Part shown: positions 5,991 through 51,790 of the stretch, piece after piece | Position numbering within the stretch: the stretch's first letter is position 1 | Layout: the number at the start of each line of letters is the position of its first letter | Source: Lineus longissimus | Lineage: Eukaryota > Nemertea > Pilidiophora > Heteronemertea > Lineidae | NCBI RefSeq assembly: GCF_910592395.1 | Contig: NC_088318.1 | Coordinates: 12,896,349-12,960,348, forward strand | DNA: 64,000 bases | Direction of reading: 5' to 3' | Program-made: the position numbers and the translations under genes | The notes under the pieces: model-generated | What the model was told of the DNA's origin: nothing | The model's input: only the letters and a program-made list of their open reading frames with translations | Databases searched by the model: none

Positions 5991-7696
5991 GCTTATAAAA
6001 CTCCCTTTAATGTAACAAAAAGAGAATCAAAGATACTGGGTAATTGATATTTGAAATATGATGGGTATATCACCCACGACCGTTCTTGCCCTCTAAACTT
6101 GAACAAAATTCGATTGGCGATAGAAAATCGGATGCAGTGCAATCAAAACTTGACGAATGTTTGAACGAACCAATACTTCCAAGAATCGACCATCCCCAAA
6201 CCAGCAAATGGCAGAGAGCGCCAATTCACGAACAACATCACGTCAAAGCAAATCGACTTAGACGCCCACGAACCATTCTCCAAACGCGAGATTATGCTGC
6301 AAATGGCACTGGTTTTTGCAATTTTGCAGGTCTTCTTTTGGAGATAACATCATATCGCGGTTTATTCCCTAACAACTCTTCGATCATATTGTCTGATATT
6401 ATTAACGTTGATCCATCAAAGTGATAATGGCGACCTTTTCTACGAAGCTTGTCATCAAACGGCTGATTATCATGAACAAAGTTTGATTGCAAGAGCGATG
6501 AGACAATATTCCCTTAGGTAAGTTTGTTGCGGCGTGAGTATGTCGGTGTAATGTTTTTGAGGGTTTCCGTTTCTGAGAAACGAAACTTAAAGACATAGAT
6601 TGAAACGTGTTTCAGTGTTTCCCCCTGATGAAAAGTCATTGCCTCGCTAGCTGTCTTTTGTATGGAAACACTGAAATATGGAGGACAACCACAGACGTTA
6701 CACCAGGAGAAAGTGAATGAGCAATGTCAATGAACTCGAAGAGTGCTAGCCAGCTAAATTCATGTGCAGGAATTCCTCTATAGGACCAAAAAAACTGACA
6801 CGATAGGGCCTACCGGAAAACCAGCGGAACTGTCGAGAACTCTTGATTTTTGAAAGTCGCTCCACCTTATTCGTTTCCCAAATAAGGTGAGAAGCCTTTC
6901 AGCGCGAGCGTTTCCACTTTCAGCACAGGATCATAAGATCCGGGGTGAAATGCCTCGCGATGAAAAAGCCGCAGCTGATGACCCTACCGACCTTGATCGA
7001 TGCAGAAGTCATTGGTGGTGTTTCCGTTCCTGTCAGTGCCAAGCAAGGGTGCCGATGCATTAACTATATTTGATTGCTTCATTGAGCTAGAGTGATTGGA
7101 TAGTTCGGATTGGACGAACCAATAAATCACTGGTGCATTCCATCTCGTTCAGTGCCAGGAATTCTCCGACTGGATAGCTTCTGTTGAAAGTCATGATTTG
7201 GTTGGGAAATTCGACGGCGGCTGTGAGTGGCAAAATGGCATCAATATGCCTCTTTTTATATATGTGTATTCATCAAATTCTTGCTCATTTATACGCAAAG
7301 CATGCAATCAATTAGCCACTTTACTGATCTTATTTAAACCAATTGATGATGCAGATCAGTCTACACGAATGCACAGTATTTTGATGTTCTTCCTTTCTAT
7401 CATGCTCTCAGATTCAGACGCATGGCCATGAAAAATAGAAGCAAATTAAATGAGTCACTGCATCAGGCCAGTTGGCGTTGGACTGATTCACGTCCTGATG
7501 ACGGCTTCCGGTTTACTTCCAAAGGTCATATTTATTCCTGCCTACTGCTTTTGACCCGGTTTCAACTTGTTCCTTCTTCTTGATTGCGTTCGATAGTAGT
7601 TCAATTAAATACGTATACCCCGTTCTGGTATATTAAGTAAACAGTTGAATAGAGCTTCCTCTTATTCCTCCAGTGTTTGGCTGTCTGGTCTGAGAC

Positions 7697-8160
7697 AGCC
7701 AAACCAGTCTTGAACAATATGGCCAGGAGTATGTTCCTGGTAAATGTCGATCAAAGCGACAGTCTGGTGTACCTCCGCTATACCGTTGTTATTGAGGTGG
7801 CTGTGAGACAATATCCGGTACAAGCATCTTGCCGAGACCAAAGAAGACGTCCAGCCAAACCAGTCTTGAACAATATGACCAGGAGTCTGCTCCTAGTAAA
7901 TGTCGATCAAAGCGACAGTCTGGTGTACCTCCGCTATACCGTTGTGATTGAGGTGGCTGTGAGACAATATCCGGTACAAGCATCTTGCCGAGACCAAAGA
8001 AGACGTCCAGCCAAACCAGTCTTGAACAATATGACCAGGAGTCTGCTCCTGGTAAATGTCGATCAAAGCGACAGTCTGGTGTACCTCCGCTATACCGTTG
8101 TGATTGAGGTGGCTGTGAGACAATATCCGGTACAAGCATCTTGCCGAGACCAAAGAAGCA
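7697..8160. repeat. 156-bp tandem repeat, 3 copies, open in several frames
   Basis: agccaaaccagtcttgaaca recurs at 7697, 7853 and 8009. Copies are about 97% identical. Because 156 is divisible by three, stop-free frames run across the array on both strands (183 codons plus, 154 codons minus). I see no splice logic or recognisable domain, so I treat it as non-coding satellite. Confidence 0.9.
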
Positions 8161-9020
8161 GCAATTACATATTACTTCTCCTACGGTGCCTCCAAATGCC
8201 GGCGTGTTACCTCTCCATCTCCCAGTGACACTTCGGAGTAGGGAAACGAGCAACCGAGCCGGCGGCGCAGCGCAGTCTTCTCAATCACAGAAACTGTATC
8301 TAAGAATGAGATTGACGATCCATGGGGCTATAGACCGATCAGTATTCTGACAAAAATGAGTTATGAGTGCAAGCTGCGGAATAAAGAACATTGCCGGAGA
8401 GACACTGCCCTTTCTGTCCAATTGCCGTTCTGAATATAACGTGACATCAAGGATTTACTTTCATCCCGTGGTAAAGTAATGGTGAAAAGCCCGCGCCTAT
8501 CAGTAAGTAAACTGCCGTAAAGAATAAAATAGCGACATTTATTCGACAGTTCGGCTCTCTTGGATGCAAGGCGAGCCTGGGAATTGTCTGCCACAACATA
8601 CACAGCGACAAACTGGCTGGGTCGTTACGTCTTGTCCCAGAGTCGGTTTTTTAACAAGCGCATGGGCGGCGCTTAGGCATGCACTGCATGTCCATCATCT
8701 TCAAATAAATGAGAATGTTCACAACTGACTCCTACTTGGGCTCACTTGGGCGCATGAATAACATTTGACGTAAACTGGCCTCAAAAGATTCCGTGTCAAG
8801 AACAAAGTAAAGGCCAAGAACGCGATGGGGGAAATTCCCATCATCTCCGGCCAATCTTTTCTCACTCATTTGAAAGGCAAATGCCGATATTGGTCGATAT
8901 GTCGTCCACCTCAGTAAACATTGCATCATTCAGGGGCTAGCATACATCACGGAGCCGAATTTGTAACAAATTGGTTGACAGTATGGAGATATCGTCAAAC
9001 TTTCTTTTATATTTTTTGTA

Positions 9021-16534: not shown

Positions 16535-19500
16535 CTGCGACAATTTTTGTTTGACTAAGTGACGGAACTGAAGAGGAAGTCAGAAAATATTTGGCAACGA
16601 TTTGAAGAAAACACTTCATGGGTTATTGAGAAATATCAGGGCTGAATTCAATTCTAGTGCTCATTTTTTGCCAAAACTATGGTTTGAAGGTGTGGAGAAG
16701 AGAGCCAAATGATAATTTCATGAAAGAATCATCAATAAGACATTTTAGTTTTTTACAGTGTAAAACAGCTGATAACCTACCATGACCCATGCCCTGTAAG
16801 AATAACCTAAATGCCTCCGCCACTTTCGCTGGTTGTTCTTCCAAGACCATACCACTGCAGTCGGATATCTGAAAACAAAACACAGACGAGTCATCTTTGA
16901 CCAGCAATCCTACATCCCAACTGCATAACAATATCATTTAAGCCTGATAACATTGTAATTTGTTGGAAAGTTCTCAAATGCCACCCTGAAATTCAAACAA
17001 AGCACTACCATAACCAATGGGCAAAGATATGTGGTTTGGTGTGAAACCTGCAAATACCATCAGTTTCAACTCATGTATAAAAGTGTGCAAATAAAATTCG
17101 ATAAACTCTTATTATCAGCTATAGTAATACTCACGTTCAACACATTCGAATTTGAAGGATCAAGTCTGCTATTCATTGCAACAACATCATCCAAATGGGG
17201 AGATCCAGCACTACCCACTAACATCACATTGCACCTAAAATTTGAAGAAATGTTTTTTTCATGATCTGATATAATGCTAAGTCTGCAAACCACAATATCA
17301 GCACAACTGTCAGTGTACCAGCATGGAAAGCCACTAGACTACTTCCAAAACCTAACAACACCAATCCCTTGCCCAGATATTTTATTGGATGAATTCCGTG
17401 ATGTGATTCCTGTACTCACTTTAGTGTTTTTGCATCTTTCTTCTTAGTTAGGTCAAGCTCTCTGCTAATTCCGAGGTCTGTTCGCCTACAAACAAGAGAG
17501 GAAATATGCGATTAAAGATTGAATAACTAAGTGACAATTAAACAATCTCTTTTTTCTATGTCACCTCCATGTGATATCCTAATTTGTTCTCTAGAATCTA
17601 CCACTGCTGTAAAACTTTGAGTTACACAAAGTGTAGTCGATTGAAAAAATAACTGGTAGGGAAATGACAGGATAACTCTCCTCTACTTAAGTACTTACTG
17701 AACATATGCATCGATGAAACTGGCCATGTTGTGCGGGTTAATCTGCTTGATGTTATCCTTGAACACATGGACAAGATCTGTGTTGCGCTCTTTGGCTTCC
17801 TGCAAGAAAAGTTATAAAGAATACATAGATCTGTTGTTGTGGTCCTTGCTTCCTGCAAGAAAGGTTATAAAGAATACATAGATCTGTGTTGTGGTCCTTG
17901 GCTTCCTGCAAGGAAGGTTATAATTAGAATACATAGATCTATTGTTGTGGTCCTTGGCTTCCTGCAAGGAAGGTTATAAAGAATACATAGATCTGTTGTT
18001 GTGGTCCTTGCTTCCTGCAAGAAAGGTTATAAAGAATACATAGATCTGTGTTGTGGTCCTTGCTTCCTGCAAGAAAGGTTATAAAGAATACATAGATCTG
18101 TTGTTGTGGTCCTTGGCTTCCTGCAAGGAAGATTATAAAGAATACATAGATCTGTTGTTGTGGTCCTTGCTTCCTGCAAGAAAGGTTATAAAGAATACAT
18201 AGATCTGTGTTGCGCTCTTTGGCTTCCTGCAAGAAAGGTTATAAAGAATACATAGATCTGTGTTGCGCTCTTTGGCTTCCTGCAAGAAAAGTTATAAAGA
18301 ATACATAGATCTGTTGTTGTGGTCCTTGGCTTCCTGCAAGAAAAGTTATAAAGAATACATAGATCTGTTGTTGTGGTCCTTGCTTCCTGCAAGAAAGGTT
18401 ATAAAGAATACATGGAGATCTGTGTTGCGGTCCCCGCTTTCTTACAAGAACATTCACAACAAGATCTGGGTCACTGTATTCTCGGGACATGAGTGATTAA
18501 GTTTAGCAAGATTTCATGTGTATGTTTCTGCATTTTCTTTTACAAAATCAGCAACAAACACAGAGGGCGAATATTGGACCTTGCCTCACCTTCCCAAACC
18601 AATGCCACAAGAGATATTCCTCCGTCGTAGCTGTGATCACGCCCATCTTGAGGTACCAGGAGTTCAGCTTCTGGTACCCCCATTCCGTCCAACCGGCAGC
18701 AGTCGCAGTACAATTCACCAGAAACAATGCATCACATTTCTCTGGGTGTTGGAGCTGGAAATACCAAAGGAATAAAATTAGTTTGTAATTTCTGGCGTGT
18801 CGAAATGAAATCCTACACAATCTGGATTTGGACAAAATTGACAACTATTCCATTGAGACTTACCGCAAATCTACAGAGAATGTTTGCCCCAGCACCAACA
18901 CCAAATCCAATTACTCTTTTCAATCTGAAAAATTTAAGTGACATAATTATTGGTTATTGCATAAAATTAGAGATCAATGAATTTTTAATCAATGCCAAGT
19001 GCAATTAATTCGACAATCCACTTTTTATTCTTTCTGATGGAAAGTTTAAATCATCTTGTTTCAACATCTATAGCACTTGCAGGAAAGATTTTAAATTCAT
19101 GATATGTGTGTGCTTGTTTCAGAAAAAAATCTTTATTTTTTACGAGAACTTCTGGATAAAGCTCTACTAATCGATGAAACATGAAAAGATTGCAGGCTTA
19201 CCCATAATACTGTAGAACTGGTAAGATCATTTCTCCAAGTTGATCCATGGTTGGGTAGCCAGTCCTAAATTGAAAATATTTATTGATAACACAGTCAAAT
19301 TTAGCACTTTCAAGTAGGTAATTATAACACATCCTAAAGACAGAAGGTAAAGTTGAATCACTAAATACATATATTTTTGTTTGTTTGTTTACTATGTAGG
19401 AAGTAAGGACTTCGCTTTGTCATATCTCTGTACTTACAATAGCCTACAGTAGCTCCAGAAAAATGCAATTCAGTCTATCAGCAACATTCACAGTGAAATG

Positions 19501-30325: not shown

Positions 30326-30501
30326 CGGCGTGGAATTCCGTTCATTATCGTGTCAGTATCTATTTTAAGATCATACTCACGTGTTGTTGTTTACTTTTTG
30401 ATAGTTAATAAATATGGTTTCTTTATGACATGGGCAACAACCTTGGCCACGGCATATGGGGAAATAGATTCATAACACAAGGTTCATCATCTCCTTGCTC
30501 A

Positions 30502-31062
30502 TTTTTAGTTCTAGCGTCACCCGAAATCCAACCCATTTTCCATCTCTGTTCGTTTTAAAATGACAATGGCGGGAAAAAACGAGATCCGTGGGGGACGTGG
30601 CTGGTGTGAGGTGATAGGGGGCATCCTGAACTAACATGCCATACCAGTAGCTGCAGTAAACAACTTGAGTTTTTAGTTCCAGCTTCACCCGACCCCCCCC
30701 CCTCCCCATTTTCCATCTTTGTTCGTTTTAAAATGACAATGGCGGGAAAAGACGAGATCCAAGGGGGTGTGGTTGGTGTGAGGTGATAGGGGGCATCCTG
30801 GACTAATATGCCATACCAGTCACTACATTGAACAACTCGAATTTTTAGTTCCAGCCTCACCCGAACCCCCCTCCCCCATTTTCCATCTTTGTTCGTTTTA
30901 AAATGACAATGGCGGGAAAAGACGAGATCCAAGGGGGACTCGGTTGGTGTGAGGTGATAGGGGGCATCCTGAACTAACATGCCATACCAGTCACTACAAT
31001 GAACAACTCGAATTTTTAGTTCCAGCATCACCCGAAATCCACCCCATTTTCCATCTTTTTAG
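30502..31062. repeat. ~170-bp tandem repeat, 3.3 copies, upstream of NDRG
   Basis: The phrase tttttagttc recurs at about 30502, 30670, 30842 and 31012. Each full unit has gttcgttttaaaatgacaat, ggcgggaaaa, a G-rich block and gccataccag. Copies are about 90% alike by eye. Confidence 0.92.
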
Positions 31063-32935: not shown

Positions 32936-33273
32936 ATCTAGCAGAACAGTCAGCGACACATATACTTTCTGATATTCAAACATGTGGTGATTGGTGTATC
33001 ATCTCTAATTGCAGTTGACCTTTGTCGAAAGCCTTTGGCTGCTTATGGCTCTGGGGAGACGTTGTCGTTGGGGTGAGTGAAATAAATTGTCCAGTTCGTT
33101 GCCAGTCGATCGAATACGTAGCAAATAGGCTTATGGTGATTGGGCAACAGCTCACTAAAAGATGGTACATATAATAATCAACAAATAATAAAGTATTGCT
33201 GTGATATGAGGTGTGTTTGTTTAAGCGATAATTATATTCCTCAATCAAGCGTGAACTGGTTCGATTTACAGTA

Positions 33274-34546: not shown

Positions 34547-34693
34547 GCCACCGAAATTCCTCCTCCACCGATTACAGTAATGTCACCGACGCCATTCATA
34601 AGGTGCGCGTAATGATCACCCTCACTGTCCTTTGCGTTACCGGAGTCTTATTCCTTCTTCTTTTTGTTTATTGCATTCGTCGAAGATGTGATA
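34547..34693 (+). CDS. Variable exon V1: ectodomain stub plus transmembrane helix
   Basis: Acceptor ttactttcag (phase 1), then HRNSSSTDYSNVTDAIHKVR, a helix from VMITLTVLCV to FVYC, then IRRRCD and a phase-1 gtaagt donor. NSS and NVT are two N-glycosylation sequons on the predicted outer side. Unlike V2-V8 it is open to its acceptor and needs an upstream exon, so it may be the ancestral form with a signal peptide and ectodomain encoded further left. I could not find those exons in 31-34.5 kb. Confidence 0.6.
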
Positions 34694-37600
34694 GTAAGTT
34701 GCATTTCTGTAACTCCTATTTTTGTGATTTCTTATCCAGTGAATTAAGGGATGCTGACTACCGCATAAACACAATGGGCTTCCACTTCTACAGCTTTAGA
34801 ATGATTTTGTGTAGTGCGTTCATCATTGGGGGTGTAGTGCTCCTGGTCATATCATATATTTGCGACTGTACACAATGTATTCTCTGTTTTGTCAGCATGC
34901 CCGTCGTGGTGATAAAAACAACCGTTTAGGGCCAATTCCCGAAAGTAAAAACTTATGTGGGGTTAGTTCAGGTGGATCAATCGTCCAATCAAAAGTGCCG
35001 AATTCTGCATCCTCGGCTTGCCCGGTTTCCCAGAAGTGTTCAAGCCTTCGTCAACCGACAATTGGCAAATTGAGTGATTTTCACCTGTTTATCTAATACT
35101 AGGCATCAAGTTTCGGCATTTTTGTCAAAATATTTTATTTCAAAAATCTATTTCCCCCAAAGTGCATACAACCAGCGGTAAGTATGCCGATTCGGCCACT
35201 GCTGATGCATGGGGCGAGTTAATTCAAACTTAGGTCTACGTGTATACTGCCATTAGCCGTTGTCTTGTCTGCAAAAGTGCCGTTGCCTTGTCTGCGAAAG
35301 CAAAACGATTATGACAATACATACTATACCGTATGTACATGAATGAATAAAAAATTTAATGAAGAGAAAAAAGTGTTGGATACACGGAGAGTCGAACCCG
35401 TGACCACCAGATCGAAAGTCCAGCATTCTAACCGTTGAACCACAGAGTTCTTCATGTTAGAAATTTTCCTCGCCTGTAATAGCCAGGCTATGGCGATATG
35501 AACCTTGTGTGAAATAGAGCGAATTTATATTTCACACAAGCTTCAGATCACCATGATGTTGAATTCGTTGAGAATTGTGTGTGTGGTTGCCACTTGATGG
35601 AGGCCCTTTGCCAGCAATAAATTATACGTGTACAAAATTTGTCAATGCCCGACACCGCCAAGAAAATTATTCTCAGTTTCAAAAGCCCATAATGTCAATG
35701 CAGCATTCAGCATCACTTACCCGGAGAACTAAGAAATGACAAAGGAGTTATAGATTGCAACGACTCGAGTAGGCTATAAGGTACAATACTGAGATGGCGT
35801 TCCACGTGGGCTATCTTATGCAATATCGGTGATTGTGATGATAATTGTGAGACTGAGATGGCACACATCAAACGCCACCAACACACTAATGATTCCCCCT
35901 TATACTTATCCCCTTGTAATTTCTTATTCATACGTCGAAGATCTCATAGTTGCAATTTACTTAGTATATATTTTTTACGATTTTTTATCCAGTAGTTAAG
36001 TGGTGACTGCCGCATGACGAACAGTATGGCCTACTACAATTTCGGAAGATATTTTATCATAGCAATCAGCGTAGGGGGAGTTATATTAATATTCGTAATC
36101 TTAATTTGCCGCAAGTTTTGCAGACGACGTGACGGCACACGTAAGTTCAGGAGGATGTTGTCACTAACTGGTGTTAGTTTTGTTTAGTTACGCTACATAA
36201 AGTCATTTCAACTAATTGTCAGCAGAAAAGCGAAGTTAATGAAGGCGTCCATGAAGGCAAAAGTATAGAAGGCTCGCTCATATATCTCTTATGAAGGCAA
36301 AAGCATTTTAGGATATGATTAGAAGTATACAGTGGCATGTAACTTTCCTTATGCTGGATGTACTGCGAAGAAAGTTATTTTAACGTTGAAGAAGCCCGCG
36401 CATTCGATATGCGGTACCAAGCAGCGCTTTGCTGGAAAAGAAACCACAATAATAAAAACACAAAATCACAAAGTCATAAAACTCAACTTATCATCAAATC
36501 TTCGACCTTAAAGGGGATGCGTTCCCTGAGCTTGCATGAAAGCAAAATTAAAAAGAAATAGGAGTGTGACGCCACACTTCGCGTTAAAATGTCGGTGGCA
36601 TCACCGTTGTTTGTCATCCTGACTCTCATGCGTTTGCGTCACCACTATCGAGATCCACGTCAGTGATTTAGCGATCTCAAAACATTGCAAGGTCAAAATG
36701 TGTTGTTGGAAGCAGGGGTAATCCTTTCAAAGTCCCGCGCCGAGGTGCTCAGTCGGTGTTGAAAACGAACGCTATTTCCAATTAATTATTTGGCGATAAT
36801 ACGCACGATATCCTGATGACGTGGTCATATCTTGTCTTCTGACGTTACTGCTAACGTTATTTGAGCAACTGGGCCCTGTGCATTACCTCTTTTTGTCTTA
36901 CCTTTGTCGAAGATTTGATAGTTAGTTGTGTTTTATATCTCCTACAGTATGTTTGTGAATACTTATCCAGTAAAGTGATTGCCACAAGGACAGAATGGCC
37001 TTAAACGTAAGAGGGATTGCCATCGCAACGTCCGTATTGGGGGGATTTATACTCCTAATCTTAATCCGATATTTTTGCCTTCGTAGTGGACGGAACGGTA
37101 GTGCGCGTAAGTTCGCATGGTGTTGTCTCAGTACGTGTAACTGTTTTAGTAGGTACTGTTTTAGTAGATATTATGGGAGTAATTTAATTATCAAAAGAAG
37201 GAAAACATTTTGTATCACCTTGCATTTAGCATTGCCTGACACAAAGCTACTTCCCAACGTTGAATATTTCATTGAGCAACTCAAGTGTACTAATTACCAA
37301 TCGTTTATACGTCGTCTGCGAAAGCTACTAAAGATTTGATCTGGATCACAACTCCACAAGTGCTGGATGCTGCCATGACAGTCATTCCGAAGTCAATAAA
37401 ACCCTTGTCAAAGATGCGGCACTCGGCGATGCTGCTGACGATAAGAAAACAAAACGTTGTTCTATCAGCTATAGATGTTCGAATTTTAAAGACCTCTTCT
37501 GCACGGCATGATCTCGCCGCGGACATTCCTCTGTGTGTGCTCCCAGGGCCCGGGCTGTGTAGGTGATCATTTCGCGTTCCATGTGAGATCCCCCCCCCCC

Positions 37601-40600
37601 TCCTGCGAACGCTAACGAGGTCGAAAAATCTGGTATCTTTATTTTCCTTGGCCACCAGTAAATACAATGAACACACCACGGCGCATCCCTTTAAGGCCAG
37701 GTCCAGGACAGTGATAGTGATTCCGCGTCATGTCGACCAGGCACGTTAGTCGTGGCATCACTGTTGTTGTATGCCGGGGTTGTAAGTTCAAGAAATTACT
37801 GCACAAGGTGGGCATGCTCGCACGGCATTCGTCTTAGTAATGATAGTGAGGCTCATACTCCCATCTAATTTTGTGGTTTCTTATCTAGTAAACTGACTGC
37901 CTCATGGATAAAATGGAGTTTGGACTAGATATCGTCTTTGTAGCATTCGGTATTGTTGGAGCTATTATCATAATGGGTGGCTACTGTCTAATTCGCAGAC
38001 AGTTAAACGGCGGTACCTGTAAGTTTACATGATGTTGTCGTTTTTAGATTCTTTTTGGTTACATGTTTTTCTCAGTCAAACATCACAACAGCAACATAAT
38101 AGCAGTAGTTGAAACATTTCAACAGATGATGTACAGAAAGGGTGATGTGAATATAGATGGATATTAAATGCCTTTGCTTCAGTTTTTATTGAGGCGGCGT
38201 GGTACTGGTTAAAGCATTTGCCAATCTTGATTTCCCGATACATAATGAACGTCGTCTGCAAAAGCAAATAAAGGTTATGACTGTGAGAAAGACGGAATAC
38301 CAAAATTATTCCAAAATGTTCTGAACTTCCGCCTTGCTAATTCCAAGAAACGCGATTTTGGTAAGCCATCCTGTTCGCACGATTCATTGGATATGGAACA
38401 CACAAGGTATAGGAGTAAAAGGCAACTCACTGTATCAGATATTCGACGGATGCAATAAACGATGCTAAAAAGAGAAGTGATATATAGTGATTATTTCGGT
38501 CCCCTCATGGGCTATATCTAGGCGTGTTGTAGGTGATGTGAATGCAGTTGGTGTTCGTGGATTTAGCAGTTCAATGAATAACATAACATACATGGAGAGC
38601 AAATGATCACCATCACACCGATGTGCCAATGATTAACATAAAACCTAACTTTTTTCTTGTCTTTTGTTCTAAACATCGAAAATCTGATGATACATTATAG
38701 CTGAACGTTTTATAACTCCTTTTTTGTGGTTTCTTATCCAGTAAGCAGACCACCGCATAGACACAATGAACTTCTTCGATGGACTAAAGATTTTCTTCAT
38801 AGCATCGAGCATTGTTGGAGCTATCATCCTAATCGGTTGCTGTTGTAGCCTCCGCTGCCAACTTAACGGCGGAACATGTAAGTTCGACTGGTGTTGTCAT
38901 ATTTTGAATATTATTTTAGTTAATTCCCAGTCTGACTACACCTTCGCAAAGAAAAAATACTACTTGCCAAGTGTCAAGTGTCAACAAAATACTTACTACT
39001 AGCCAGGTTGGAAAAAAATCAGCTTAACCATGATGTACGGACATATTCCCATGCCAATAAAGATTATAATTTGAACAAGAAAGAATATGGCTATCATCGA
39101 AACTGCGCTCAATATCATTTCAAAGTCGCACCCTGATCTTCAGGCCATTTACACTTGTTATTTCACCTGAAAACGTGTTTACATCTGAAAAATATTGATC
39201 AATATTCCCCACTGACTCTGAGTGACCAAACCTTGCTGTAACAGCCTGTCAACAAAATAGCCAAGGTGAAAAGGTTAAGCTTACGTCTGCGAATGCAAAT
39301 ATCAAATGAAGATAATGATTGGGCATTGGGGCAATAATGATTATGGTAATGGACGCTGTTCCAAAGTACATCCTATCTTCGAGACATTTGGTGTCACTCG
39401 TACCTCCCTTCAAAAGTCGAAATGTGTTGGAGGGGAGGCGGTGTCTTCATATCGTAATCAGTATCAGTTCACTGGAGGAGTTATGAAATACATGCAGACC
39501 TTCTAAGATTTATTGCATAAGGTGGCCAACATGGGATGCGAAATGTGATGCGCCCTACCACTGCCTTTACGGGAGTCGCCTACTCCCATTTCTCATCATG
39601 CGTTTATGTTATTGCATTCGAAGAATTAATAGTAAGTTACTGAAAATAGAGTTCAATATCTAAATGTACTTTCAATTGCATTCGCAAATTTGAAAACTGT
39701 ACAACAGCCACGTCGTCTACGAAGGTAAATAAACGTTATGAAAGGGCATCCGTGACGCGGCCTTTCGGATAACATCCTCGGCGCAATTGCAGAAGCTCTC
39801 ATTAAATTAAAGTATCTCTTAACTGGATAAGAAACTACAAGGAGTTGAGATTCAGCTTACTAGAAAATCTTCGATGGATCCAAAAACGACAGGAAAATGG
39901 TGTATACGTGACTGGGATATAGTGGTCATTTTATGCATGGCCTGTCTGACAGACCACAGGTACATGAAGATCAACACGTTTTATTCCGTTCGTTGAAGAT
40001 TTGATAGTAATAGTTGCTAACAACTGCTGTATCTTGTGATTTTGTATTCAGTCAACTGACGTAGACAAAATGAGCCTCTGGGAGATTGGAACGATTATCT
40101 TCGCAGTATCCAGTATTGGTGGAGTTATGCTCCTACTATGTTTCTTTATTTGCTTCCTCAGACGAAGAAACGGCAGTTCATGTAAGTTCGCGTTATCGGT
40201 ATGTTGTCGAGTATATCATTTCCATGTGCGTGTAGCTATTTCCTAATCTGACTAAATGCTATGCCAATGACAGCTATGTAGAAGAAAACAAGAGAAGTTT
40301 CAATTTCAGCTTAAATGTTCAACCGTCACGTCGTCCACGAAGGCAAAAATAAAGTCTATGATTGCGAGCATGAACTCCCCGGGTCCATCGTTGAGGTCCA
40401 TGCGGCAGTCAGCATTCACGGCGTTATATGAATGTAACTTATCAAATCTTCGACATCTTACCACATAACAATAAGTTCAATAAGAGGTAAAGAGTCTCGG
40501 AGCCTTGTGTATCAAGGTGATAGGGGGATGAAATAAACGGCAAGAAATGTATATAGGAGTAGGACTCCGTCTGGCTTATGTCATCTCGCGCTCCGTGTGA

Positions 40601-42007
40601 CGCCATGCTGTTGAGGTGAAGTCGTGCTTCTTTTTTCTCAGAAATTGGATTCGTCATGGATTTGTTGTTATTAGGCGCTTTACAACTCCTGTTTTTTTTT
40701 GTGATTCCATATCAAGTAATCTGACTGCAGCATAGAATGGACGTCTTCGAAAGGGTGATGATTTTCTTCGCTGTGCCCATCATTGTGGGAGTAATGCTCT
40801 CAATTTGCTGCTTTGTTTGTCTTCGCAGACGCTGTGACAGTAAGTTGAAATGTTTAACTTCTCTTGATATGGAATTTTGCTTGCGCATGAACATTTTATT
40901 GTGCTCCAAACTGGGATGCTTTATTTGCCTTCGCAGACAACACGGTCATGATATAACGATAATTTTCAACTTATCTCCTTTTGACATGACAGGACTGCAT
41001 TGGTCCAGCTACTGACAAAACACAAAAACCCTCGAAGCCGCATGTTTGCGGATATTTTAAGCGGGAAAAGGTGTAGGAATGTAGAGCAGGGTTACGATGT
41101 GATTTTTGGCCTGTTGGTTGACTCGCTTGAAGCGAACTGGTATCTTTGCAACGTCTTCACGGTAGGACCGTGAGGTCATTCGTGTTTTCTCGGGGGGGGG
41201 GTTGAGAAAAAAATGTCCGGGAGGATTAGAGAAAATGGTGAAGATCACTCAGTTTGTAAGACCAAGGAGATTACGACCTAAAACAGCAGTCGACCTGTTG
41301 GTGTAGAAGAGTTACATTGTGTATTCTTTTGTTGAAACAGCCTTGCATTTTTAGGGAATGACTCCGTTTCTGAGGCCTCCAACCCAGAGGTTGTCAAGCC
41401 TCCACCAACCTACGAAGAGGTGGTCGGGTCGAATAACTTTCCCGTACGCCAGGATGGGGCGGCTAGTAATGGCTACACCATGAACGTTGCTACGATTGGA
41501 AACCTACAGGTACTTTTTGTATTCTGCGGCGGTGCAACATATTTTGGTTAAGGGATGCAGCATCTTATTTTGTTAATGCGATGTTTAAAACTATCACTTT
41601 GGTGCGGTTGCAGCCTAGCCACTACAACTGCCCGACATTTCGCTACCTGCCCACAGCTCCGACCAGCAACAGCGCCACTTGTCGATTTTATCGTTGATAA
41701 GCATCCATGTACTCTCTCTCTTTGACAGATGCAGGTACAACAGCCACCATCCTACGACAGTTTATCTGCAGTGACTACGGGACTGTCAGCACAACCAACC
41801 ACGCCAGAAAACACGTCCAGCAATCCGCCCAACCCTGCAGACAATCAAACCGAGACACGAGCCGAACCCAGTGTTGCTGAAACCCCACAGCCAACGAGCG
41901 GTGCTCCGGACTCGCCGGACGGAATCTGCGCTGTGACAATGCCGCCATCCTGCTCTGACCAAGTCCCATTAGCTGAACAGGAACAGGGGTCCGCACTGCC
42001 AGTTTAG
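34547..42007 (+). CDS. PPxY-tailed single-pass membrane protein with a tandem array of alternative transmembrane exons (5' end not found)
   Basis: Eight homologous variable exons (V1-V8, 34.5-40.84 kb) precede two shared exons (41355-41509, 41729-42007). Seven of the eight end in gtaagt donors at phase 1, matching the phase-1 acceptor of the first shared exon. The shared exons join at phase 0. A V6 transcript would encode 181 aa: a short acidic/neutral N-terminus, one helix of about 22 residues, a Cys/Arg juxtamembrane cluster and a Pro/Ser/Thr/Glu-rich tail with PPTY and PPSY. Positive-inside charge predicts N-out, C-in topology. PPxY motifs bind WW domains, notably of Nedd4-family ubiquitin ligases. 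The C-terminal ALPV fits a class II PDZ ligand. I do not recognise an orthologue. Overall layout resembles Shisa, WBP1 or NDFIP-like adaptors without clear homology. Roles are inferred; exon structure is read from the sequence. Confidence 0.75.
34740..34929 (+). pseudogene. Variable exon V2, probably degenerate
   Basis: After acceptor cttatccag, ATG at 34774 opens MGFHFYSFRMILCSAFIIGG and a helix like the other copies. The frame then diverges before the basic cluster, and the donor position (34904-34912 region) reads aaaaca instead of gtaagt. In the shifted frame the cluster survives as CQHARRGD and runs on to 35094. It is either a dead unit or a private-tail variant. Confidence 0.5.
35376..35452 (-). 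pseudogene. tRNA-Glu(TTC)-like sequence, likely tRNA pseudogene or SINE head
   Basis: On the minus strand there is a D-arm/A-box (tggttcaacgg), an anticodon arm ctgga-CTTTCGA-tctgg with anticodon TTC (35416-35414), and a B-box ggttcgactct. The acceptor halves do not pair and the T-stem has an extra base, so a functional tRNA is unlikely. It sits between V2 and V3 of the exon array. Confidence 0.6.
35993..36140 (+). CDS. Variable exon V3 (alternative membrane anchor)
   Basis: Acceptor ttttttatccag, then ATGs at 36014 and 36026 in frame (MTNSMAYYNFGRY), helix FIIAISVGGVILIFVILIC and basic RKFCRRRDGT, then gtaagt at phase 1. The junction codon with the shared exon gives Arg. Confidence 0.7.
36971..37106 (+). 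CDS. Variable exon V4 (alternative membrane anchor)
   Basis: Acceptor acttatccag, a 24-nt leader starting with taa, ATG at 36995, MALNVRGIAIATSVLGGFIL then LILIRYFCLRSGRNGSA, then gtaagt at phase 1. If the donor is skipped the frame stays open to a stop at 37339. Confidence 0.72.
37889..38018 (+). CDS. Variable exon V5 (alternative membrane anchor)
   Basis: Acceptor ttcttatctag, then in-frame ATGs at 37904 and 37913: MDKMEFGLDIVFVAFGIVGA, IIIMGGYCLIRRQLNGGT, then gtaagt at phase 1 (junction codon Trp). Confidence 0.72.
38742..38877 (+). CDS. Variable exon V6 (alternative membrane anchor)
   Basis: Acceptor ttcttatccag, a 24-nt leader, ATG at 38766, MNFFDGLKIFFIASSIVGAI then ILIGCCCSLRCQLNGGT, then gtaagt at phase 1. 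It is closest to V5 (shared IVGAII and QLNGGT). The CCC cluster at the inner face is a plausible palmitoylation site. Confidence 0.73.
40052..40181 (+). CDS. Variable exon V7 (alternative membrane anchor)
   Basis: Acceptor tttgtattcag, an 18-nt leader, ATG at 40070, MSLWEIGTIIFAVSSIGGVM then LLLCFFICFLRRRNGSS, then gtaagt at phase 1. Confidence 0.73.
40717..40839 (+). CDS. Variable exon V8 (alternative membrane anchor nearest the shared exons)
   Basis: Weaker acceptor atatcaag, ATG at 40737, MDVFERVMIFFAVPIIVGVM then LSICCFVCLRRRCD, then gtaagt at phase 1. A truncated extra copy of the helix end (GCFICLRRQHGHD) follows at about 40910-40950 without a donor. Confidence 0.72.
41355..41509 (+). 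CDS. Shared cytoplasmic exon C1 with first PPxY motif
   Basis: Phase-1 acceptor gcatttttag, then NDSVSEASNPEVVKPPPTYE, EVVGSNNFPVRQDGA and so on to GNLQ, with a gtactt donor at phase 0. PPTY is a WW-domain ligand and is preceded by a PEST-like stretch. Confidence 0.82.
41729..42007 (+). CDS. Shared terminal coding exon C2 with second PPxY motif
   Basis: Acceptor ctctttgacag, then MQVQQPPSYDSLSAVTTG... for 92 codons rich in Pro, Ser, Thr, Glu and Gln, ending EQGSALPV and TAG. PPSY is the second WW ligand. Low-complexity composition and clean phase-0 joining to C1 support it. Confidence 0.85.
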   Translation: MQVQQPPSYDSLSAVTTGLSAQPTTPENTSSNPPNPADNQTETRAEPSVAETPQPTSGAPDSPDGICAVTMPPSCSDQVPLAEQEQGSALPV

Positions 42008-47699: not shown

Positions 47700-48290
47700 G
47701 TGAGTTTAGACCTTAGACGTGTTCCTCCAAGAAAGGGCACTGTTATAAGCTCAACATAGATCTCTGAGTTGAGACCTCAGACGTGTCCCTCCAAGAAAGG
47801 GCACTGTTATAAGCTCGACATAGATCTCTGAGTTGAGACCTCAGACGTGTCCCTCCAAGAAAGGACACTGTTATAAGCTCGACATAGATCTCTGAGTTGA
47901 GACCTCAGACGTGTCCCTCCAAGAAAGGACACTGTTATAAGCTCGACATAGATCTCCGAGTTGAGACCTCAGACGTGTCCCTCCAAGAAAGGGCACTGTT
48001 ATAAGCTGGACATAGATCTCTGAGTTGAGACCTCAGACGTGTCCCTCCAAGAAAGGACACTGTTATAAGCTCGACATAGATCTCCGAGTTGAGACCTCAG
48101 ACGTGTCCCTCCAAGAAAGGGCACTGTTATAAGCTGGACATAGATCTCTGAGTTGAGACCTCAGACGTGTCCCTCCAAGAAAGGACACTGTTATAAGCTC
48201 GACATAGATCTCCGAGTTGAGACCTCAGACGTGTCCCTCCAAGAAAGGGCACTGTTATAAGCTCGACGTAGATCTCTGAGTTGAGACCTG
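47700..48290 (+). repeat. 64-bp tandem repeat, 9 copies, each able to form two hairpins
   Basis: Each unit contains tctgag-ttgagac-ctcaga (stem 6, loop 7) and gtgtcc-ctccaagaaa-ggacac (stem 6, loop 10), then tgttataagctcgacat. Five copies have gggcac instead of ggacac, which keeps pairing through a G-U pair. Later copies alternate, giving a 128-bp higher-order repeat. Degenerate relatives extend left to about 47.15 kb. Confidence 0.93.
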
Positions 48291-49848: not shown

Positions 49849-51790
49849 TGGCAAATCTGCATACTAGTTATTATGTGCTGACTATGCTCTTAACTTTGGA
49901 CAATGTTGGAGCATAATTCCTGTTTGTATTTTCATAACTGCTCATGTCGGGCTTAAAAGGTATTTTGGTGCTCACTGGCACATCTGCATACCAGTAATTA
50001 TGTGCGGACTTAATTTGCTTTTAAGCAATATCATTGCTACACTCCTAAAGCAGTGGCAGTGTTCAGGGTCATTTCTGCCTCGCTAGCAAATCTGCACACC
50101 AGTAATTATGTGCAGACTTGGCTCTTTCTTTGGAGCAGTATAGTTGCAAGATAATCCTGTTTGTAATTTTATAAATTAATTGCTCATTAAGGGCTTACGA
50201 AGGTTTTGATGCCTCGCTGGCACATCTGCATACCAGTAATTATGTGCAGATAAATTTTCGCTTTGAAGCAATATCGTTGCTACACTCCTAAAGCCGTGGC
50301 AATGTTCAGGTTTTTTCTGCCTCGTGGGCAAATCTGCATACCAGTAATTATGTGCAGACTTGGCTCTTCCTGAGATTGTAGGACTGGGTCCATTGAATGT
50401 AACAAAAATAATCGATGCCTATTTACAAATGAAATGAAGAGTCTGCATTTTGGTGCAACTCCATATAACTGTCAGGTGATTTCGCTCTGAACTTGTGACA
50501 CTCTGATTGGTCTGAAATAATCATTATCCCGCCCCTCTGGGAAAATTTTGCAGCCAGATTGCACCATTTCTTGTTACCGTCTGAGAGATGGCGATGTCAA
50601 GGGCGCATGACGGTGGTTAAACCTATTGCGAATGGGCAGCACAATTGGGTGTAGGATATTCGGAAACCATTGCACACCCCTGAATCTGCGGTGGGTTGGT
50701 ACCCCACGCTACGTAATGAGTAGGTTGACGGGTAAAACTTGGTCCACGTGAATGGGTCGTGCCTAAAAAATGATGAGAAGTTGCGAATTGACGCCCTGTG
50801 AAGTGTCCCTCGACCAGCTAGTGCTAATACGGTCACTGTCTCCAGGTCACCATGCCTCGGTCAAGAGCGGGCGAAGCACCCAATGGCTCCGTCAGGAGTA
50901 CATCGTCAACTTCATCCCGTAGTCAAACCGGTACGCGCACAAATATCTTAGTTGAGAGTGGGGGACATCAGTAAAGTGCTTCTCATCGGGGTAATACAGT
51001 ACCACTGTATACAATGACCCCATTTTTTGTTGGATTCATTTCCACTGAGGAGTGGTCGATAATGAGAATTTCAGGCCAGTCTGATTATCACCAGTACAGA
51101 GGGCAATTATCTGATAGTTATGTGGCTTTCCCTCAAACTTTGCTTTGAAGCGATATCGTTGCTACACTCCTAAAGCAGTGGCTGTCTTCAGGTCTTTTCT
51201 GCCTCGTGGGCAAATCTGCATACCAGTGATTATATGCATACTTACGTTTTGCTTCGAAGCAATACCAGTGCTACACTTGTGAAGCAGTGGCAGTGTTCAG
51301 GTCTTGTCTGCCTCGCTGACATATCTGTATAACAGTAATTATGTGCAGACTTGGCTCTTTCTTTGGAGCAGTATAGTTGCAAGATAAATCCTGTTTGTAA
51401 ATTTATAAATGAATTGCTCATTAAGGGCTTACGAAGGTTTTGATGCCTTGCTGGCACATCTGCATACCAGTAAATATGTGCAGACTTGATTTTTGCTTTG
51501 AAGCAATATCGTTGTAACACTCCTGAAGCAGTGGCAGTGTTCAGATCTTTTCTGCCACCCTGGCACATCTGCATACCAGTAAATATGTGCAGACTTGATT
51601 TTTGCTTTGAAGCAATATCGTTGTAACACTCCTAAAGCAGTGGCAGTGTTCAGATCTTTTCTGCCACCCTGGCACATCTGCATACCAGTAATTATGTGCA
51701 GACTTAATTTTTGCTTTGGAGTAATTTCATTGCTAAACTCCTAAAGCAGTGGCAAGAGTAATTAACTTGCTACACTCTTGAGGCAGTGGT
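49849..51790 (+). repeat. ~109-115-bp interspersed/tandem repeat with conserved hairpins
   Basis: About ten copies in two clusters (49.85-50.38 and 51.10-51.79 kb). Clear copies start at 51453, 51562 and 51671 (period 109). Each has gcacat-ctgcataccagtaatt-atgtgc (perfect 6-bp stem), ttgctt-tg-aagcaa and cactcctaaagcagtgg. The clusters are separated by about 700 bp of unrelated GC-richer sequence. Confidence 0.9.
50852..50930 (+). CDS. Possible first coding exon of an unidentified gene
   Basis: ctgtctccag-gtcaccATG opens MPRSRAGEAPNGSVRSTSST then SSRSQT and reaches a gtacgc donor at phase 1. Composition is GC-richer than the flanks, with coding-like third positions and a good start context. 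No family is recognisable and no continuing exon was found up to 53.5 kb, so this stays tentative. Confidence 0.3.

Follow-up and report, generated by a model that had tools for sequence, protein, structure and literature searches.

The window analysed here, a single stretch of 64 kb, contains the gene LOC135496245 of Lineus longissimus (bootlace worm; Nemertea, Lineidae). The locus was identified by a protein search whose query joined one membrane-anchor exon of the array described below (V7) to the downstream tail. This search led to two clusters among 29 candidates, both of them LOC135496245, namely isoforms X2 (P0001, 215 aa) and X4 (P0002, 182 aa). Isoform X2 is the exact translation of the spliced segments 33045-33072, 34547-34602, 40052-40181, 41355-41509 and 41729-42007, and isoform X4, compared by eye, corresponds to the exon V4 read from its ATG at 37904 and followed by the same tail. 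V4 and V6 (the 40052-40181 segment) are annotated at NCBI as alternative anchors on a common tail, and the sequence-only reading, that one gene joins different anchor exons to one PPxY tail, is in this respect supported. The clusters, formed at 90% identity, comprise 5 and 3 sequences, among which isoforms with further V exons could sit; the label X4 implies, from the way NCBI numbers isoforms, at least four annotated isoforms including X1 and X3, two isoforms having been seen. Since the genome is described as having 79-fold long-read coverage and chromosome-level scaffolds (PMC8593623), an assembly artefact at the array is unlikely.

All exons of the gene lie on the plus strand. The first coding exon of X2 (33045-33072) encodes MALGRRCRW and ends in a phase-1 donor; it is placed by the exact spliced match to P0001, and its start ATG has a weak context with C at -3. 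An acceptor-like sequence, ctctaattgcag, precedes this exon at 33015-33044, and from this point onward the frame stays open (LTFVESLWLL-MALG); a longer X2 N-terminus with a signal-like stretch, supplied by a further upstream exon, is possible. The second exon used in X2, exon E (34547-34602), ends AAG|GTGCGC in phase 0 and encodes the glycosylation motifs NSS and NVT. The tail begins at 41355, directly after TTTTTAG, is entered in phase 1 and offers a single acceptor that fits the GTAAGT donors of the V exons. Tail exon 1 (41355-41509), present in both P0001 and P0002, runs from phase 1 to phase 0 and encodes PPPTYEEVV, and tail exon 2 (41729-42007) encodes QQPPSYDSL and the stop codon. The two PPxY motifs that had been predicted for the common tail are PPTY and PPSY, one per tail exon and 41 residues apart; both follow the Arg-rich flank of the membrane helix, and it is this flank that suggests a cytoplasmic location for them.

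Elsewhere in the window there are several tandem repeats: 9.2 copies of a 64-base unit with 96% matches (47701-48289), a higher-order repeat with periods of 53 and 213 bases (17774-18433), a 171-base repeat that is open over several copies (30501-31058; minus strand 30555-31058), a 156-base repeat likewise open over several copies (7696-8158; plus strand 7653-8228, minus strand 7789-8280), and repeats of 242, 109 and 37 bases (49851-51789), the last region containing minus-strand open frames of 103 and 129 codons at 51242-51740.

Between the upstream exons and the tail lies an array of 6.3 kb (34547-40839) with eight exon-like units, each encoding one membrane helix. The number, extent and relatedness of these units are as the sequence-only reading had described them, except that the first is of a different form. 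V1 (34547-34693) is an alternative-donor extension of exon E, that is, its long form, recognised from the sequence: it continues the E coding sequence into the membrane helix VRVMITLTVLCVTGVLFLLLFVYCIRRRCD, lacks an ATG-type start, and ends in a GTAAGT donor in phase 1. The other seven units have starts of their own. V1b (34740-34876, its end placed by eye) has the acceptor TTATCCAG and an ATG at 34774; it has lost its GTAAGT donor, a weak phase-1 GTATTC following position 34876, and its acceptor is separated from the V1 donor by 46 bases, a gap perhaps too short for splicing. The remaining units, all with a phase-1 GTAAGT donor, are V2 (35993-36140; ATG at 36026 and also at 36014), V3 (36971-37106; ATG 36995), V4 (37889-38018; ATG 37904 or 37913; used in X4), V5 (38742-38877; ATG 38766), V6 (40052-40181; ATG 40070; used in X2) and V7 (40717-40839; ATG 40737), the last with the acceptor-like ATATCAAG and the others with acceptors. 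An AG after a T-rich stretch is found in all seven ATG-type units, although in V7 it takes the odd form ATCAAG, and GTAAGT is found in six of the seven. Including that of V1, there are seven phase-1 GTAAGT donors (last exon bases 34693, 36140, 37106, 38018, 38877, 40181 and 40839), which match the single downstream exon at 41355 just as had been proposed. The expected unit length of 34-38 codons also holds, V2-V7 having 38, 37, 35, 37, 37 and 34 codons from the start codon, as does the small-residue core of the helix (VGGVIL, LGGFIL, VGAIII, VGAIIL, GGVMLL, VGVMLS).

The array is not due to chance. A profile was built from the seven ATG-type sense units and used to search the 64-kb window. Above the inclusion line it placed, besides these seven units, six copies in antisense orientation (E 2.4e-12 to 1.4e-7) and a single sense remnant of the 3' end of a further V unit (40901-40941, plus strand; E 0.002). 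The next rows also fell within the array, at 35318-35278 (E 0.037), at 39598-39640 (E 0.54; a weak plus-strand sense remnant like the V1 end, with GTAAGT) and at 39303-39284 (E 3). No convincing V unit was found outside the array in the 64 kb, where four rows had E values of 3.9-9. In leave-one-out searches each of the seven ATG-type units was recovered by the profile of the others, with E values of 3.1e-21 to 1.7e-41 (70.6-137.1 bits); when the full model was run on 20 dinucleotide-shuffled versions of the window, its best score was 13.2 bits.

The reading frames across these junctions constrain how the units may be combined. The lengths of V2-V6 are 1 mod 3, and these units are entered in phase 0 and left in phase 1, whereas V7 has a length of 0 mod 3. 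Because exon E ends in phase 0 and the tail is entered in phase 1, a frame begun at the upstream start breaks if all V exons are skipped or if two of V2-V6 are joined. A start at the V exon's own ATG, on the other hand, tolerates an extra V exon upstream, and thus the phases favour a single V exon without fully enforcing it. Read from the E junction, the first codon of the unit is TGA in V1b, TAG in V2, TAA in V3, V4, V5 and V7, and TCA in V6, which means that five of the six units V2-V7 close the E frame at once and V6 alone reads through. The sequence-only reading had supposed that the products differ only in their anchor and juxtamembrane Cys/Arg cluster, and this has to be given up: the V6 isoform, which is seen, and the V1 isoform, which is predicted, add an N-terminal segment of 28 residues with two N-glycosylation motifs, a segment that would be cut off by the stop codon in V1b, V2-V5 and V7.

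The explanation we favour, with somewhat better than even confidence, is that LOC135496245 is a single gene whose transcripts each use one exon out of an array of alternative anchor exons. The exon anatomy and the joins of V4 to the tail, of V6 to the tail and of E to V6 are established, the joins by the NCBI proteins; the use of the other V exons, the restriction to one per transcript, the start at V ATGs, the topology and the ligase binding are what we infer. Under this scheme one anchor exon would be spliced in from up to eight alternatives, V1 being chosen when the inner donor of exon E is ignored and the other V exons when E, or another leader, is spliced to their acceptors. The V1 and V6 products would retain the glycosylatable N-terminal segment. 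For V2-V5 and V7 the stop at the junction would end the upstream frame and translation from the V ATG would yield a protein with hardly anything outside the membrane, by leaky scanning, reinitiation or a different leader, as we infer for these stop-first isoforms; the alternative is nonsense-mediated decay. In this respect, splicing of E to a stop-first exon would place a stop upstream of later junctions, which is a setting for nonsense-mediated decay. The PPxY tail would lie next to the Arg/Cys cluster on the cytosolic side, where it would recruit NEDD4-type WW-domain ligases, and the anchor would set the location, the partners or the self-association of the protein. Points against this explanation are this early stop in five of the six units V2-V7, the lost donor of V1b, in V7 both the ATCAAG acceptor and the length of 0 mod 3, and the paralogue dN/dS near 1 set out below.

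Another way to read the same exons, of lower probability though deserving serious consideration, is that they are variable first exons, each with its own promoter and spliced straight to the tail, and V6 would be the only unit whose acceptor-like motif is more than a relic. The V ATGs are in good context (A at -3 in all seven, G at +4 in five of the seven), the upstream frame is stopped in V2-V5 and V7, and the X4 protein begins at the V4 ATG, all of which such a scheme would explain. The polypyrimidine-AG motif, however, is the best kept of 23 windows along the sense units, with 18.4 of 22 matches to a consensus that includes the units themselves, and the V6 acceptor is in use in X2. The likeness to variable-first-exon loci drawn in the sequence-only reading is for these reasons less apt than it seemed: V2-V7 have acceptor motifs, and X2 splices the acceptor of V6 to upstream coding exons.

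One might also ask whether most of the array is used at all. The sequence-only reading had suggested a dN/dS for each V exon from related species; what was computed is the ratio between V paralogues within the array, and at about 0.8 it is indistinguishable from 1. On a codon-model tree of the seven units omega was 0.813 in the log and 0.85 at the best point of the grid, with a log-likelihood of -771.1 against -771.6 at omega 1 (twice the difference being about 0.9), and six units alone gave the same picture (-667.4 against -667.7). Differences per site at codon positions 1, 2 and 3 were 0.477, 0.369 and 0.465, position 3 not exceeding position 1. Pairwise dN/dS estimates were rejected in favour of the tree-based fit, as the null optimisation had not converged and two pairs reached absurd lengths. 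There is no evidence, then, of residue-level purifying selection among the V paralogues. What the sense units do keep is their frame, their hydrophobicity and their splice sites. All seven ATG-type sense units are open, and the 19-residue hydropathy of V2-V7 is 2.16-3.16. Neutral evolution was simulated 3,000 times along the fitted tree, with substitutions only, a consensus root and a 19-residue mean of at least 1.6 counted as hydrophobic. All seven units were open in 5 runs, all seven hydrophobic in 3, and both in none; at 0.6 times the rate the corresponding numbers, again of 3,000, were 38, 24 and 1.

These results bear on an explanation that we regard as unlikely, in which only V1, V4 and V6 (or fewer) are used and the stop-first V exons are poison exons or slowly decaying relics. 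It would accommodate the stop in the E frame that opens five of the six units V2-V7, the lost donor of V1b and the dN/dS near 1. It does not sit well with V4, itself a stop-first exon and yet present in an NCBI isoform, nor with seven open frames and intact helices, which are improbable under neutral drift as far as a simulation with substitutions only and a consensus root can show.

Between the sense V units there are, on the minus strand, six antisense V copies and one weak antisense fragment. M1 (35278-35756) is a decayed copy in two parts, and M3 (37308-37451) and M7 (40303-40456) are decayed as well; M2 (36237-36506), also decayed, keeps the acceptor motif, and the head of the decayed M4 (38249-38472) shows 89% complementarity with the final 28 bases of V1 (34666-34693). 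M5 (39275-39303; E = 3) is a fragment of the 3' end only, without ATG or helix, in which GTAAGC immediately follows the Arg codons. In M6 (39697-39891) the acceptor motif has survived and the frame that follows an ATG is still open, but the helix (hydropathy 0.57) and the donor are lost. Not one of the seven antisense copies retains the full set of ATG, open V frame, hydrophobic stretch and donor; the open ATG frame of M6 and the GTAAGC donor of M5 indicate that single features can persist without function. The best 19-residue hydropathy in the four scorable antisense copies was 0.57, against 2.16-3.16 in V2-V7, the open V-frame parts of M1, M2 and M4 (6, 10 and 17 residues) being too short for scoring. 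Pairwise local scores are 48-156 for sense units and 25-59 for antisense copies. The neighbouring V unit is the best match for two of the seven, M1 (V1/V1b) and M2 (V3); M4, M5 and M6 match V1/V1b best, M3 matches V5 and M7 matches V3. Between the two parts of M1 there is a tRNA-like stretch on the minus strand (35384-35442; Rfam tRNA, 26.8 bits, below the gathering score of 29 bits), possibly a tRNA-derived repeat; Rfam at the gathering threshold and ARAGORN gave no match in the window.

It has been considered whether the antisense copies are kept as RNA tools that pair with the transcript to pick the anchor exon, combined with a junction-stop switch of the ectodomain. The copies, whose helix frames are gone, would retain two islands, a 22-mer at the Arg/Cys end and the head TCGAAGATTTGATAG, with complementarity to the ends of the V exons and to the region of the V1 donor. 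Through the junction stop, most products would have a bare anchor in place of the glycosylated N-terminus. If this were true, a single splice choice would fix anchor and ectodomain together. The ends of the antisense copies do pair with V ends more stably than shuffled sequence (mean of 56 pairs -25.4, against -18.1 with s.d. 0.7 kcal/mol in 100 shuffles), though descent alone predicts such pairing. Hairpins in five intron pieces, each compared with 30 single-base shuffles, were more stable by 2.0-2.8 s.d. in two cases and by 1.6 in one, and less stable in two. As a joint proposition we consider this quite doubtful. Finally, the array might consist of copies of a mobile or recombination-prone element that lie in either direction and have not been maintained as exons. 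This is suggested by the alternation of sense and antisense copies and by the tRNA-like stretch in the locus, but is very improbable given that no convincing unit lies outside the array within 64 kb and that two units are used by NCBI isoforms.

Whatever the mechanism by which anchors are chosen, the origin of the protein can be approached through its relatives. The one match outside Lineus, among the best 7993 candidates by shared words that were scored, is a scallop protein (E 0.037), which leads to 48 rows; the 32 that carry an organism name are all from molluscs, and the other 16 carry none. In the alignment of 24 of the 48 rows, four Cys are nearly invariant, and the molluscan proteins share one conserved helix and a pair of PPxY motifs. 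Profile comparison with this family gave 97.4% and E 1.1e-11 over 62 columns covering the helix and PPPTYEEVV, and common descent is probable, with the qualification that a helix and a PPxY motif can match by composition. The likeness between LOC135496245 and the molluscan single-pass PPxY protein (P0003 and relatives) consists of the helix, the Cys/Arg flank, PPPTYEEVV and the second PPxY; the molluscan protein differs in having one strongly conserved helix and four nearly invariant outside Cys that are absent from X2 and X4. With TMEM51 (Pfam PF15345; cut-off 25.5), a hypothetical V1 plus tail protein scored 26.6 bits through the tail region only, and X2 (23.7 bits) and X4 (22.1 bits) fell below the cut-off. 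A role as ubiquitin-ligase adaptor is suggested by the PPxY motifs and by the weak similarity to the molluscan PPxY membrane protein. A comparable layout is known in ENTREP/FAM189A2, which like NDFIP1 is described as a membrane-bound ITCH activator with PPxY motifs (PMC8811627). Two such motifs, both cytoplasmic, are reported, and in this layout, with a spacing of 42 residues in ENTREP against 41 in LOC135496245, the proteins are alike; the portion of its description consulted here (PMC8811627) mentions no anchor array.

As to the array itself, three known systems offer comparisons. In the clustered protocadherins, variable exons that each include a membrane anchor are described as joined to constant exons (PMC8787164), but there promoter choice selects the exon and each encodes six ectodomains, whereas the V exons show acceptor motifs and encode hardly any ectodomain. 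LOC135496245 is closer in kind to the internal, mutually exclusive anchor exons of Dscam1 (exon 17) and N-cadherin (exon 18), and these are the better comparison. In insects, exon 17 of Dscam1 likewise comprises mutually exclusive exons that exchange the membrane anchor, with a reported role in subcellular localisation (PMC8787164, PMC3364881, PMC8042237). It has two alternatives against the eight units of LOC135496245, and Dscam1 is a large Ig receptor, the L. longissimus protein having some 180-215 residues; unlike in Dscam1, most V exons close the upstream frame at their first codon and contain a start codon themselves. The arthropod N-cadherin exons 18a and 18b, also mutually exclusive and carrying part of the membrane helix, are reported as a pair of alternatives, 68-70 residues long, within a large cadherin and without start codons of their own, and the two anchors are said to differ in homophilic adhesion with no visible difference in location (PMC2655722). 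That those anchors showed no difference in location speaks against assuming a routing role for the anchors of LOC135496245.

In the papers searched on alternative transmembrane exons a comparable eight-exon anchor array was not found; these dealt for the most part with Dscam, and otherwise with N-cadherin, a survey of insects, the ryanodine receptor, synaptotagmins and immunoglobulins. The swapping of a helix by splicing is known from the two-exon cases, and what sets LOC135496245 apart from these is the larger array on a small PPxY protein. Such an eight-member array would provide a natural series of anchors on a constant tail, through which the contributions of the helix and of the juxtamembrane cluster to location, self-association and ligase recruitment could be asked directly, and the helix that is strongly conserved in the probable molluscan relative would in LOC135496245 be the variable part.
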